Below are positions 21,396 through 59,165 of a stretch of 64,000 bases of DNA, piece by piece. Origin of the DNA: Gemmatimonadaceae bacterium (GTDB lineage: Bacteria; Gemmatimonadota; Gemmatimonadetes; Gemmatimonadales; Gemmatimonadaceae); NCBI GenBank assembly GCA_016742275.1, contig JACVCD010000001.1:310001-374000 (forward strand), in the 5' to 3' direction. Numbering within the stretch: position 1 is the stretch's first letter; each line of letters begins with the position of its first letter. The translations under genes and the position numbers were made by a program. The notes under the pieces are model-generated. The model did no database searches. It was not told the origin of the DNA and saw nothing but the letters and a program-made list of their open reading frames with translations.

Positions 21396-22946
21396 ATGCC
21401 AACTGCCTCCACCGCCGTGCTCGAATCGTCGGGTCCACATGCTCGGACCGAGATTCGCGCCCTCGCTATTGGATTGGTTCTCGTTGCGGCGGCCTTTGCG
21501 GCCACATGGCCAACATTTCCGGCCGTATGGCTGGAAAATCGGTCGCATGGCTTTCTCGCCGCGGCACTGGCGGGCTGGTTTGTGTGGACGCGTCGGTCTG
21601 ACATCGGTCACGTCAATCGACCACTGCCGGTGCTGCTGCCAGTAGTTGCCGCATTGTCGTTTCTCTGGTTGGCTGGTCAGATCATGTCGGCACAAGTGGT
21701 CAGCCAGTTTGCCTTGCTTGCCTTGCTTGGCACCTTCGTGGTGACCGTGAATGGCTCGCTCGCTGGCCGCGCTCTTGGCCCCGCAGCTGCAGCACTCGCA
21801 CTCGCCCTGCCCATCTGGGAAGTTCTGACCTGGCCGCTCCAACTCATTGCCACGGTGATTGGCGGCACTGTCGTCAAGCTCCTGGGCGTTGACGCGGTCA
21901 TCAAGGACGAGACCATTACCGTGCAGTGGGGTCAGTTTGTAGTTGCGGACAGCTGCTCCGGGCTGGGCTTCTTCCTTACCGCAGTCACGCTCGGTCTGAG
22001 CTACGCGCTCATGTTCACCAAGAGCTCGCGGGCTCGCTGGCGCATTGTAGCCTTGGCGGCATTATCCGCGCTCGTTGCCAATTGGATTCGCGTAATCGGT
22101 CTGGTCTTGATCGGTAACGCCACGCGCATGCAGTCATCACTGATGCAGGACCATGAATTGTTTGGCTGGGTGATTTTCGGTGCGGCCATGATGGTGTTCT
22201 TTATGCTCGCATCGCGCATCGAGCGCCGATATCCGCAGGATACCGGCGCGCAGACAACCACATTGCCCCACACATCTGAGCGCCGTCCTTCCTGGCTCGT
22301 CCCTGTCGCCACAGTATGTGCGGTCGCAGGGCCACTGTTGCTCTATGGTGTTCGTCTTCAGACAAATGCTCCAGTATTCGCTCCGGTAATCGGCGGCATT
22401 GTCGCTGATGCGCGATGGATCGCATTGCCGACCGTGCCTTCGTCCAACGACGCACGTGGCGCGGTGGACAGCAACAAGTGGGAGCCACAATTCGTGGGAC
22501 AATCGAGTCACGAGGTTCACTTGTGGCATCAGGGTGTCGATACGATTCGCGTTGACCGCGTGGTGTACACGAGTGAACGACAGGGGGCCGAACTCGTAGG
22601 CGCCGGAAGCCAGGTTGCGGCGGATTCTATCGTGCTCGCTCAACGACTGGTTGGTCCACTGGATCAAACGGCTCGCACGGCTCGCCAGGTGGTTGTTCGA
22701 GAAGGCAAGCGCGCGCGTGTGATTTGGGGATGGTATCGAGTAGCAGGAATGGAAACATCCTCCGCAGGCAAGGCAAAACTGATGTCGCTCTTGGCCTTTC
22801 TGAAACGACAGGAGGGGGGGGAAGGCGTATTTGTTTCAACACCGTGTGATGCTGGTGATTGCAGCAAGGCCAGTGCGCGCCTCTTTCAGTTTGTAACTGG
22901 TCGAGAGCTACCGAGCGCCGAGGTCAAGCCCCAAGGCGCTTCGTGA
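21396..22946 (+). CDS. xrtA: Exosortase A with fused EpsI domain
   Basis: The 516-residue product is the membrane transpeptidase that cuts PEP-CTERM proteins and hands them to an acceptor at the outer face of the inner membrane. About eight membrane segments span residues 20-300. The catalytic triad is complete: C187 in VVADSCSGLGFF, R232 in ANWIRVIG and H253 in MQDHELFGW. After the last helix comes an EpsI (DUF3485) domain, about residues 310-510, typical of the A-type fusion. ATG 21396 is the first start after the divergent gene; the frame is open much further upstream but over non-conserved residues. The FemAB-like gene overlaps its stop as GTGA. Confidence 0.95.
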   Translation: MPTASTAVLESSGPHARTEIRALAIGLVLVAAAFAATWPTFPAVWLENRSHGFLAAALAGWFVWTRRSDIGHVNRPLPVLLPVVAALSFLWLAGQIMSAQVVSQFALLALLGTFVVTVNGSLAGRALGPAAAALALALPIWEVLTWPLQLIATVIGGTVVKLLGVDAVIKDETITVQWGQFVVADSCSGLGFFLTAVTLGLSYALMFTKSSRARWRIVALAALSALVANWIRVIGLVLIGNATRMQSSLMQDHELFGWVIFGAAMMVFFMLASRIERRYPQDTGAQTTTLPHTSERRPSWLVPVATVCAVAGPLLLYGVRLQTNAPVFAPVIGGIVADARWIALPTVPSSNDARGAVDSNKWEPQFVGQSSHEVHLWHQGVDTIRVDRVVYTSERQGAELVGAGSQVAADSIVLAQRLVGPLDQTARTARQVVVREGKRARVIWGWYRVAGMETSSAGKAKLMSLLAFLKRQEGGEGVFVSTPCDAGDCSKASARLFQFVTGRELPSAEVKPQGAS

Positions 22947-53093: not shown

Positions 53094-53957
53094 TCAAGCA
53101 CACAGATTGATATTAGACAAATCAGGTGTGGTGTTCCTTGGCAGAAAGAGGGAGGGCGGCGCATCGCCAAGGCTTTGATGCGGGCGCTCGGTGTTGTACA
53201 TCTGCCGCCAGTCCTCGCTCAGCGCGCGGACTTCAGCAAGCGACGTGAAGACCCACACATCGAGGATTTCGGCGCGGTAGGTGCGATTGAAGCGTTCGAT
53301 ATAGGCGTTCTGATTGGGGTTCCCCGGTTGAATGAATTGCAACAGGATACCGTGGTGGTCACACCAGCTCCGCAGCGCCTCGGCGATGAATTCGGGGCCG
53401 TTATCACAACGCAGGCGACGCGGCTTGCCATGCAAGGCGACGAGTTGATCGAGTACCGCCGTCACGCGCACACTCGGTAACGACGTCGCCACTTCGATCG
53501 CAAGACATTCGCGATTGCCTTCGTCGAGCACGTTGAAAATGCGATACTTGCGTCCGTCATAGAGCGTGTCGCGCATGAAATCCATGGCCCACGTGTCGTT
53601 GAGCACGGGCGCCGCGTCCAGCGGCACGCGCACGCGCGTCAACACCCGCTTCTTGGTGCGACGGACTTGATTGAGGCGAAGGGCGCAATAGACGCGATAC
53701 ACGCGCTTGTGATTCCATCGATGGCCCAGGGCGCGCAGGCGCTTGAAGCACAACCAGAAGCCCCAGCGCGCCTTCGTCGCCACCAGCGCTAACAATGCGT
53801 CGATCACCGGCGCATCGCGCTCCGCCAATCGATTGCTCGAGCGATAGTACGCCGTCCGCGAGAGTCGCACCAACTGACACGCGCGCACAATCGATACCTG
53901 ATGCACGGTGACCAATTCGGTGGCGACGGCTCGGCGCGCAGACGGCGTTACAGTTTT
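53094..53957 (-). CDS. IS3-family transposase OrfB
   Basis: The integrase-type catalytic domain is made by -1 frameshifting from OrfA near 53955 (minus-strand CGAAAACTG). An HTH_21-like linker (IVRACQLVRLSRTAYY) is followed by the rve core. DDE residues are visible: D in DTWAMDFMRDTLYDG, D in LRCDNGPEFIAEAL and E in NQNAYIERFNRTYR. The stop codon lies within the inner part of the terminal repeat region. The enzyme looks intact. Confidence 0.9.
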   Translation of the reverse strand, partial: KTVTPSARRAVATELVTVHQVSIVRACQLVRLSRTAYYRSSNRLAERDAPVIDALLALVATKARWGFWLCFKRLRALGHRWNHKRVYRVYCALRLNQVRRTKKRVLTRVRVPLDAAPVLNDTWAMDFMRDTLYDGRKYRIFNVLDEGNRECLAIEVATSLPSVRVTAVLDQLVALHGKPRRLRCDNGPEFIAEALRSWCDHHGILLQFIQPGNPNQNAYIERFNRTYRAEILDVWVFTSLAEVRALSEDWRQMYNTERPHQSLGDAPPSLFLPRNTTPDLSNINLCA

Positions 53958-54214
53958 CGGTGCAGCACATCCTTGATCGCCGCGTTTTCCAACGCCATCT
54001 CCGCGTACATGCGTTTGAGCTGCGCATTTTCCTGCTCCAACTGTTTCAATCGCTGCAGCTCCGGCACACTCGTCCCGCCATACTTCTGCTTCCACAGGTA
54101 GTACGTCGGCCGACTCACCCCGTGCTTTCGCAGCAACTCCGCCACGGGCACGCCCGCTTCGCCCTCCCGCAACATCGCGACGATCTGCGCTTCGGTAAAT
54201 CTCGACTTCCGCAT
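53948..54214 (-). CDS. IS3-family transposase OrfA
   Basis: The 88-residue DNA-binding subunit opens with RKSRFTEAQIVAMLREGEAG and the helix-turn-helix VAELLRKHGVSRPTYYLWK. A leucine-zipper coiled coil follows (LQRLKQLEQENAQLKRMYAEM). It overlaps OrfB in the -1 frame, giving an OrfAB fusion by ribosomal frameshift as in other IS3 elements. Confidence 0.9.
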   Translation of the reverse strand: MRKSRFTEAQIVAMLREGEAGVPVAELLRKHGVSRPTYYLWKQKYGGTSVPELQRLKQLEQENAQLKRMYAEMALENAAIKDVLHRKL

Positions 54215-54278
54215 CGGTGATCCTCCTAAAAGCCCGATTGAAGTCTAATTATCGCTGTGTCCGATCAGGGGAAGCTTA

Positions 54279-55097
<819 letters not shown>

Positions 55098-56536: not shown

Positions 56537-58198
56537 CTACTGCCCGCTTGAGACTGAAACTCGAGCGCGACTCATGTAGATAAACTGATCTGATGGGATT
56601 GGGGTGCCACCGGAGCCGCCGTAGTACATGTTATAGTCCCATGATGTCCAGTGCCCTGATCCAGTGGCCGTCATCATTACGTCGCTATAGCTGCCGTTCA
56701 GCACGGGGGCGTTCCATCCTGACCCATTCCATTCGCTAGTCCACCACCGCAGGACGCTATTCTGTCCCCCTACGGTGTTACTGACAGCCAAGAATTCAAG
56801 TCGATACCACTTTCCGTTCGACATCGGAGCGTTTGCCATGTTGCTGGGGCGTAGCCCACTGACACGATCACCCGAGAACATCTCAATCATCCACTGAAAC
56901 TTGCCTGACGTTGTTCCATCGACCGGCAGCATCGCAAATTGAAACGGACGCTGATAGCCGCTAGCCGTCGATACAAACGGGTAGATGAACTTTGTTCCTG
57001 ATGGATGCTCGACATAATTCTCAGAACGCTTGAAAACGATACAGCTATATACTGCCCGCGGCGCACTCGTTAGATCGAGAGTGTTGAAGTAACCGAGCTG
57101 GCCCGCTGCTGTTCCGGCCGGCTTTCTCCATGCCAATACCGAACTGCCACCCGGAGCCGTCGCATCGTTTACGACGCTCTTGTTTTCACCCCAGTAGGAG
57201 AATCCGGTGGGCGCCAGCAGGCTACTTAGGGCGCCATCTGCGTACTGCTGATATCCGCTGGGCTCATTTGGACATGCTACGGACCCACTCGGCGGCGGAA
57301 CCGGCGGAGGCGTGGTGGTCGCAGTCACGGTAACCACCGCCGTATCCCGCGCCGTGCCACCCGTATGCGCCAAGATCACGCGGTACGTACCAGCTGTAGC
57401 CGGTGCCGTATAGAGGCCCGCGGACGTCACTGAACCCGCCGTCGCACTCCAAGTCACCGGGGGCAACGTGGTCGCACCGGTGCTCCACAACGCGCTTGCC
57501 GCGAACTGCTGCGTCGCACCGGCCGTCAATGAAACCGTCTTCGGGCTCACCGTGACACGCGTCAGCTGCGCCGGCAGCTCAACGGTCACGAACGCCGTAT
57601 CCAGCGCGCCGCAGAGGCAGTTCGCAATAACCATGAACGAACCGGCCACGTTGCCCGCCGTAAACAACCCACTGCTGCTGATGGTGCCTCCGGTCGCCGT
57701 ATACGTCACACCGTAGTTCCGCGTCTGGCCATCTGACCACGTCTGTGTCGTAGAAAACTGCCGAGTCTGCGCCGGGGCAAGGGCGGTGCCCGTCATCGGC
57801 GAAACCGCGAAGCCCGTCAGACGGAATGCCGGGGTTACCGTGACCAGATAGGTCTCATCGACGGCGAAGCCGCTGGCGGTCACATAGGTCGAACCAGCCG
57901 CCCGACCCGTCACCGTACCGGTGCTGTTCACCGAAGCGGCGTTCGAATTCGAGCTCGTCCACTTCACACTACCCCGGCTACGCGACGAGGTGCGCACCGT
58001 GAGCTTGGTGCTCGACCCGACCAGGAGATTCACCTCGCCGGAGAGCGTGGCACTTGCATAGTTGCTGCTGCTGCGCGCGCTGCTGACTTCTGCCAGATCC
58101 AGCGATGACGTTACAGACTGATCGGGCGAGCACGCGCCGACCAGGACCAGCGTGATAGCGGCGGTGGTCTTGGACCACCGGTTGAACAGGGGGTGCAC
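56537..58198 (-). CDS. Ig-like-repeat lipoprotein with lectin/lyase-like C-terminal domain, c-di-GMP controlled
   Basis: GTG 58198 is chosen because GGAGG lies seven bases upstream; earlier in-frame ATGs fall inside the riboswitch. The product is 553 residues. A signal peptide ends in a lipobox (ITLVLVGAC), so it is probably anchored to the outer membrane. Residues ~50-290 carry three bacterial Ig-like (BIG2-type) repeats with the K-W-T-S-S-N/V-T-W-S-A pattern. A proline linker (TTPPPVPPPSG) joins a C-terminal ~240-residue domain with a jelly-roll look (FSYWGENKS, NGKWYRLEFLAVSN, WTSWDYNMYYGG), resembling concanavalin-like glycan-binding or polysaccharide-lyase folds. Adhesion to, or trimming of, the matrix polysaccharide is inferred. 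Confidence 0.82.
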   Translation of the reverse strand: MHPLFNRWSKTTAAITLVLVGACSPDQSVTSSLDLAEVSSARSSSNYASATLSGEVNLLVGSSTKLTVRTSSRSRGSVKWTSSNSNAASVNSTGTVTGRAAGSTYVTASGFAVDETYLVTVTPAFRLTGFAVSPMTGTALAPAQTRQFSTTQTWSDGQTRNYGVTYTATGGTISSSGLFTAGNVAGSFMVIANCLCGALDTAFVTVELPAQLTRVTVSPKTVSLTAGATQQFAASALWSTGATTLPPVTWSATAGSVTSAGLYTAPATAGTYRVILAHTGGTARDTAVVTVTATTTPPPVPPPSGSVACPNEPSGYQQYADGALSSLLAPTGFSYWGENKSVVNDATAPGGSSVLAWRKPAGTAAGQLGYFNTLDLTSAPRAVYSCIVFKRSENYVEHPSGTKFIYPFVSTASGYQRPFQFAMLPVDGTTSGKFQWMIEMFSGDRVSGLRPSNMANAPMSNGKWYRLEFLAVSNTVGGQNSVLRWWTSEWNGSGWNAPVLNGSYSDVMMTATGSGHWTSWDYNMYYGGSGGTPIPSDQFIYMSRARVSVSSGQ

Positions 58199-58200
58199 TA

Positions 58201-58216
58201 GGGCCTCCAAAGGTCC
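58201..58216 (-). promoter_or_regulatory. Hairpin enclosing the lipoprotein gene's Shine-Dalgarno
   Basis: On the minus strand GGACCT-TTGG-AGGCCC can form a short stem with one mismatch that holds part of the GGAGG ribosome-binding site for GTG 58198. It sits directly after the riboswitch aptamer and is a plausible translational on/off platform (inference). Confidence 0.5.
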
Positions 58217-58220
58217 ATAT

Positions 58221-58319
58221 GCGTTCGGTAGCTCAGCCGGCATAGCCCGCACACCTTCGTGCGGAGCGGTAGCCCTGGAGCTTTGCGTCCCCGTCTTTCA
58301 ACGGGTTTGCCTTTGTCGC
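58221..58319 (-). promoter_or_regulatory. Cyclic-di-GMP class I (GEMM-I) riboswitch
   Basis: Reading the minus strand, the aptamer core is all present and in order: AGGCAAACC, a short stem capped by a GAAA tetraloop (CCCGTT-GAAA-GACGGGG), GACGCAAAGC, the receptor strand CAGGGCTACCG, a variable hairpin, GGGCTATGCCGGCT, and the closing GCTACCG. GCG and CGC at the two ends can form the outer stem. It ends 22 bases before the GTG start. This matches the well-studied c-di-GMP-I family. Whether ligand binding turns translation up or down cannot be told from sequence. Confidence 0.9.
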
Positions 58320-58450
58320 TTCCCTGCTTCGACGTCGAAACGGATTGGCAGACTCGGCACTGCTGACAACTGAGGACTCGTCATGGTGACGAGCGCGCAC
58401 GAGGTCGGCAACGCGATTTCGCACGCCCAAGTGACCCCAATCACAACCCA

Positions 58451-58471
58451 CAGTGTCACGCTGTGACACTG
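58451..58471. promoter_or_regulatory. Palindromic operator candidate upstream of the riboswitch
   Basis: CAGTGTCAC and GTGACACTG form a perfect 9-bp inverted repeat around GCT, 132 bases upstream of the aptamer. A second, smaller dyad (CTCGTCA-tgg-TGACGAG) is at 58377-58393. Both lie in the expected promoter region of the lipoprotein transcript. The size suits a dimeric repressor or activator. The rest of 58320-58532 has no gene. Confidence 0.5.
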
Positions 58472-58532
58472 CGACCATAACACATGACAAACGCTGTTTT
58501 TCTGCTCAGAAAGTGAACAGGAGATGAACAAT

Positions 58533-59165
58533 TCAGCGGATTGCGCCTCGCGCCGCTGAATAACGCTTTCCCCACAGCTCCCCTATGGAGCGAACCCCCC
58601 TGAAAGCCGTCTGCGTAACGGTTTCGCCTTTCCCGTAAGGGTCCGCAATCTCTCGCGAAACACGTGCCACAATGGCCTCATTGCCCGTTTCATCAGTGGC
58701 AATGTCTCCCACGAGGAAGACACGACCACCGTGACCCAGGTGCATCAATACATGTGCCTCATTGAAGCGATCCATGCACACCACGAGATCGCGATCCGTG
58801 AGCTCCAATGACGCAAGCGGACTTGATCGATGCGCCTCGAGATCGACACCGAACTGGCGCGCCACGGCCGCTGCCGTCTGTTCTGCAGGACTGCCGTCAC
58901 TGGCGTGAGTGCCCGCGCTCAGAATGAAATCGGAGTAGAGCGGACTAGCAGCGCGCGCCACTTCCGATGCAAACGCACTGCGCATGATGTTGCCATGGCA
59001 GACAAACACCAGGCGACCATCAGCATGACTCAGCGCCTCATCGAGGCGATGTCGCCGACTTGCCGGTGACTCGAGCAGCCGGCGCACCACCCACACGGCA
59101 CCAGACGGAGGCAAGGTTCGCAGCAACCACAGCACACGTCGCGAACGGGCGAGAAAACTGCTCAC
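58533..59165 (-). CDS. Low-molecular-weight protein tyrosine phosphatase
   Basis: The product is 210 residues from GTG 59165. The phosphate-binding loop is VFVCHGNIMRS with C56 and R62 (C-x5-R), and the general-acid aspartate is in IADPYGKG. About 50 residues precede the usual LMW-PTP start, including a basic stretch (FLARSRRVLWLLR). Wzb-type enzymes of this family dephosphorylate BY-kinases, so the Wzc-like protein encoded at 30489-32957 is the likely partner even though it lies 25 kb away. The loop differs from the common CxGNICRS by Met in place of the second Cys. Confidence 0.92.
   Translation of the reverse strand: MSSFLARSRRVLWLLRTLPPSGAVWVVRRLLESPASRRHRLDEALSHADGRLVFVCHGNIMRSAFASEVARAASPLYSDFILSAGTHASDGSPAEQTAAAVARQFGVDLEAHRSSPLASLELTDRDLVVCMDRFNEAHVLMHLGHGGRVFLVGDIATDETGNEAIVARVSREIADPYGKGETVTQTAFRGVRSIGELWGKRYSAARGAIR

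Follow-up and report, generated by a model that had tools for sequence, protein, structure and literature searches.

The window (the whole stretch of DNA analysed, 64 kb) contains a lipoprotein gene with a riboswitch aptamer in front of it and the exosortase of an exopolysaccharide (EPS) cluster.

21534–22217, plus strand: exosortase of the neighbouring EPS cluster (TIGR02602, 139.8 bits).
56537–58198, minus strand: gene for a 553-aa lipoprotein with a signal peptide and lipobox (C23), a Big_2 stalk and a PL14/PL20-like C-terminal domain.
56540–57265, minus strand: the polysaccharide-lyase-like C-terminal domain of this protein, called the tip (profile A3 compared with the PDB).
58195–58222, minus strand: predicted hairpin with the Shine-Dalgarno sequence GGAGG (58208–58204) and GTG (58198–58196), a possible expression platform (MFE folds).
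58224–58321, minus strand: aptamer of a c-di-GMP-I (GEMM-I) riboswitch (RF01051, 76 bits, E 3.8e-13).
58448–58474, minus strand: terminator-like element in the gap that separates the phosphatase gene from the riboswitch, a perfect 12-bp inverted repeat with a T-rich tail (17-bp core GTGTCACNNNGTGACAC).

When the whole window was searched against Rfam using cmscan, RF01051 was the only match at gathering level. The match, at 58321–58224 on the minus strand, covered the full length of the model (1–87) and scored 76 bits against a gathering cut-off of 35 bits. The original prediction had placed a GEMM-I aptamer at 58221–58319 and proposed a covariance search for it; the two sets of coordinates differ by 3 nt at most. 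No non-standard pairs were marked in the alignment, and the aptamer has all conserved elements of the Rfam class, from which it departs only in a P3 longer than the RF01051 consensus; its P2 loop is GAAA. Furthermore, the pairs of P2 and P3 covary, with compensatory changes, among six genus-level homologues. These features speak against a degenerate or non-functional RNA that has simply travelled with the gene, a reading that we consider highly improbable. The aptamer is absent at one homologue (G133) and the P1 extension is weak in the query, but across 30 of the 35 genera of the family the aptamer has been retained in front of unrelated lipoproteins. The riboswitch is thus an ordinary, well-supported representative of a known class.

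The ligand contacts were assigned in Vc2 numbering by our own mapping; on this assignment, the query has G at G20, AAA at A47 and ACCGAA at C92, as in the c-di-GMP type. Because these positions read G, A and C, the aptamer is predicted to bind c-di-GMP. All 98 mappable aptamers of the family have contact positions of this type. That the aptamer instead recognises a different cyclic dinucleotide, cGAMP, like GEMM-Ib RNAs, is very unlikely. Such a variant does exist in these bacteria, since A occupies the G20 position in relatives within the phylum (L117, L134 and nine loci outside the family). The model RF03167 (c-di-GMP-I-GGC variant) also scores close relatives of the query, reaching 66.2 bits in G121. 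However, the query itself combines G at G20 with the GAAA loop and the long P3, and it reads GACGCAAAGC where RF03167 needs a G at A47.

The aptamer ends 25 nt upstream of GTG 58198 and thus lies in the predicted 5′ leader of the lipoprotein gene, as it does in the relatives. In G121, G138, G115, G391 and the Gemmatimonadetes MAG L141, an M-H-P start stands at the equivalent place, and the start codon of the relatives is GTG or ATG followed by HP. Given this gap and these equivalent starts, the start that had been predicted at GTG 58198 can be regarded as settled. The encoded protein carries a lipobox, LVGA-C with Cys23 (MHPLFNRWSKTTAAITLVLVGAC; by the pattern rule only), and one Big_2 domain (45.9 bits), as expected for the Ig-domain lipoprotein that had been proposed. 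The protein ends in ...SRARVSVSSGQ without a PEP-CTERM match; because this tail is absent, we read the lipoprotein itself as one that is not an exosortase substrate.

The C-terminal domain had been described as lectin-like. The query tip alone gave no significant match in Pfam or the PDB and did not pass the curated cut-off for PL14 or PL20, and its AlphaFold prediction, with a pLDDT of 40, was of too low quality to be drawn on; the class assignment comes from a profile of relatives only. This profile, A3, built from the tips of 18 relatives, matched the PL14 alginate lyases 6kcv and 6kzk (best E 1.9e-8) and the PL20 glucuronan lyase 2zzj (E 5.6e-8) in the PDB. In addition, 14 of the 18 tips matched PF14099 and 10 matched PF21294, both polysaccharide-lyase families of Pfam. 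On account of these matches, we replaced 'lectin-like' with 'lyase-like': the tip is better read as a PL14/PL20-lyase-like domain, which would bind or cut polysaccharide, than as a recognised lectin. Compared with these enzymes, the predicted tip has very low identity and is joined to an Ig stalk and a lipid anchor. Between the query and G121, the stalk region is about 56% identical, whereas the aligned tips share 17% identity and do not match at E 0.001. Across the genus, the tips follow a common broad lyase-like pattern at 16–25% identity. The stalk is conserved and the tip strongly variable, possibly through replacement or very fast divergence. The stalk homologue in G133 that has no detectable riboswitch (L033/L195, 5842–8019, minus strand) adjoins a phosphatase similar to the one encoded at 58533–59165 in the window.

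The original prediction derived translational control from a hairpin that holds the Shine-Dalgarno sequence. Such a hairpin is predicted in the query, where MFE folds pair part of GGAGG and GTG, but it is not unusually stable (z −1.05), and in the family as a whole the spacer hairpins do not exceed shuffled sequences in stability (mean z −0.18); a family-wide Shine-Dalgarno hairpin as the switch was rejected for this reason. The pattern GG-N-CC...GG-CC is kept in the homologues, and since their sequence is mostly unchanged it contains little covariation information. What favours translational control is the fixed short spacing together with the finding that no terminator-like site was predicted on the coding strand between the aptamer and GTG, and control at translation is likely on these grounds. 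Transcription termination, or Rho action or decay of the leader, in place of ribosome access is an unlikely mode of control, although GEMM-I RNAs of Bacillus thuringiensis and Clostridioides difficile do use terminators or act at the transcript level (PMC4933901, PMC6200980, PMC9262584); the start lies within 15–29 nt of the aptamer in nearly all relatives, which leaves little room for such a device. A T5 run near the start was found at only 8 of 100 family loci.

The sign of control cannot be borrowed from known systems, because GEMM-I riboswitches go both ways. The Bc2 RNA upstream of a collagen adhesion protein gene of B. thuringiensis turns expression ON with c-di-GMP via an anti-terminator (PMC4933901), while the class I riboswitches of C. 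difficile are OFF switches and its adhesins are ON under class II (PMC6200980). Bc2 resembles the query in being a GEMM-I leader ahead of one surface adhesin-type protein, but it differs in the anti-terminator and in serving a Gram-positive cell-wall protein rather than a predicted outer lipoprotein; several class I riboswitches of C. difficile control surface proteins, as proposed for the query. Folding of 87 leaders with and without the aptamer core was discarded as a guide to ON or OFF (Shine-Dalgarno accessibility 16 up, 13 down, and swapped tails behaved alike). Pairing of the P1 flanks in the family stood at 55%, versus 22% with re-dealt flanks, and 16 of 29 cases showed overlap with the hairpin. 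A P1 strand-exchange ON model was nevertheless rejected for the query gene, which has almost no P1 extension. We lean slightly towards ON. Two other elements were considered and dropped: the inverted repeat at 58448–58474 as a regulon operator, since no second perfect copy of its core exists in the genome and a control pattern was equally frequent, and a sigma-54 promoter, for which no convincing site was seen in the leader and matches were abundant across the window.

The search of related genomes, also proposed originally, showed that the aptamer recurs ahead of lipoprotein genes in relatives; of the stalk homologues, one (G133) lacks it. RF01051 was detected in 104 of the 148 family genomes and in 150 of the 298 genomes of the phylum sample. 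The downstream gene was read at 108 family loci; by a strict lipobox rule it encodes a lipoprotein at 78 of them, compared to 18 of 242 control ORFs (Fisher p 3e-35, with loci taken as independent despite their relatedness). A further 14 loci were called by eye, and in 89 of the resulting 92 calls (14 by eye) the start lies 15–29 nt downstream of the aptamer. When 93 otherwise unrelated downstream proteins were aligned, the start Met, the lipobox Cys and one Gly were the nearly invariant columns. Big_2 was found in 51 of the 93 and subtilase (S8) in 11; PKD, beta-helix, ricin lectin, lyase and GH6 domains also occur. Thus, the view that c-di-GMP is linked to one extracellular protein holds for this genome but not for the relatives, in which the aptamer precedes many different lipoproteins. 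The association is weaker outside the family: at 40 loci there, the strict rule called 11 lipoproteins and inspection by eye about 18, and several other kinds of secreted protein were also seen. The strong, spacing-constrained association of riboswitch and lipoprotein in the family is the more interesting result, and no earlier description of such a regulon was found in the literature searched.

The lipoprotein had also been placed beside an exosortase/EPS system. In the window, the exosortase and the riboswitch are 36 kb apart, and they lie on the same contig at 25 kb in G098 and G069, 7.7 kb in G391 and 6.6 kb in G086, so that the unit is found 7–36 kb from an exosortase in five genomes of the genus. 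In G391, G098 and G069, gene comparison showed that the EPS region includes the lipoprotein gene. The exosortase-proximal lipoprotein of G086 has no BLAST-detectable similarity to the query, yet it stands downstream of a riboswitch; the only riboswitch of G048 is elsewhere, upstream of a different lipoprotein. As the five genomes are related, the linkage is to be read as conserved synteny, not as five independent events. By title and abstract, no riboswitch tied to an exosortase locus was found in the literature. Genes for an MBOAT acyltransferase and an SGNH-like protein adjoin the riboswitch lipoprotein in G098 (L198, 6010–8489, minus strand) and G069, which suggests that the EPS may be acetylated. 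In the window, the EPS genes are separated from the lipoprotein gene by two transposase genes (53094–55097, minus strand), one of the rve type and one of the Mutator family that is apparently cut short.

We consider it probable that the leader of the gene contains a class I c-di-GMP riboswitch which controls translation of an outer-surface lipoprotein, and that the Ig stalk of this protein displays a PL14/PL20-like polysaccharide domain. Binding of c-di-GMP would most likely alter ribosome access to the Shine-Dalgarno sequence and the start, which follow the aptamer by 16–25 nt. The lipoprotein would be anchored by its N-terminal lipid with the Ig-like stalk projecting outward, and the tip displayed at its end would bind or cut polysaccharide, probably the EPS made by the linked exosortase cluster. 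For Gemmatimonadota more broadly, we somewhat favour a GEMM-I lipoprotein-display regulon with fixed short spacing and translational control, in which Ig-stalk proteins carry evolutionarily exchanged tips (lyase-like, lectin, protease, glycosidase) and one unit is tied to the exosortase EPS cluster. In a soil phylum that is mostly uncultured and little studied, the locus offers a direct, testable link from c-di-GMP to one surface protein. The genome (4.57 Mb, 99.6% complete) encodes 15 GGDEF domains versus one GEMM-I copy, and the family pattern suggests that c-di-GMP mainly selects surface display in these bacteria. In addition, hundreds of natural leaders are available for learning how GEMM-I RNAs act on translation. 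No description of c-di-GMP riboswitches in Gemmatimonadota was found, which is weak evidence of novelty since subscription papers were mostly outside the search.

Several other aptamers of the phylum are also of note. The G20A change accompanies cGAMP binding (PMC6274999). A at G20, resembling GEMM-Ib, is found in L117 (3500–3579) and L134 (3500–3580), both on the minus strand and both with a GCGA loop and a short P3, and also in L158, L162, L165, L168, L171, L173, L181, L189 and L192. Some of these aptamers stand ahead of STAS proteins (L117, L134) or lipoproteins, and the group suggests that cGAMP signalling may operate in Gemmatimonadota. GUCGCG replaces GCCGAA in L082, L086, L090, L092, L107, L118 and L129 (GUCGAG in L097), giving U at the presumed C92 position, and several members of the GUCGCG group precede lipoproteins with a protease-like N-terminus. 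In L010, L015, L016, L017 and L078, GEMM-I lies only 11 nt upstream of the gene for a 312-aa response regulator protein; in the scanned set, five members match Response_reg and five match GGDEF, which suggests a c-di-GMP feedback loop. In another family of the order, GEMM-I aptamers were seen as tandem pairs less than 100 nt apart (L156, L160 and G151:C3:4761–5007), and a SAM_alpha riboswitch (RF00521, 45.2 bits) was detected on the Gemmatimonadota contig L097 (2044–2118, minus strand).
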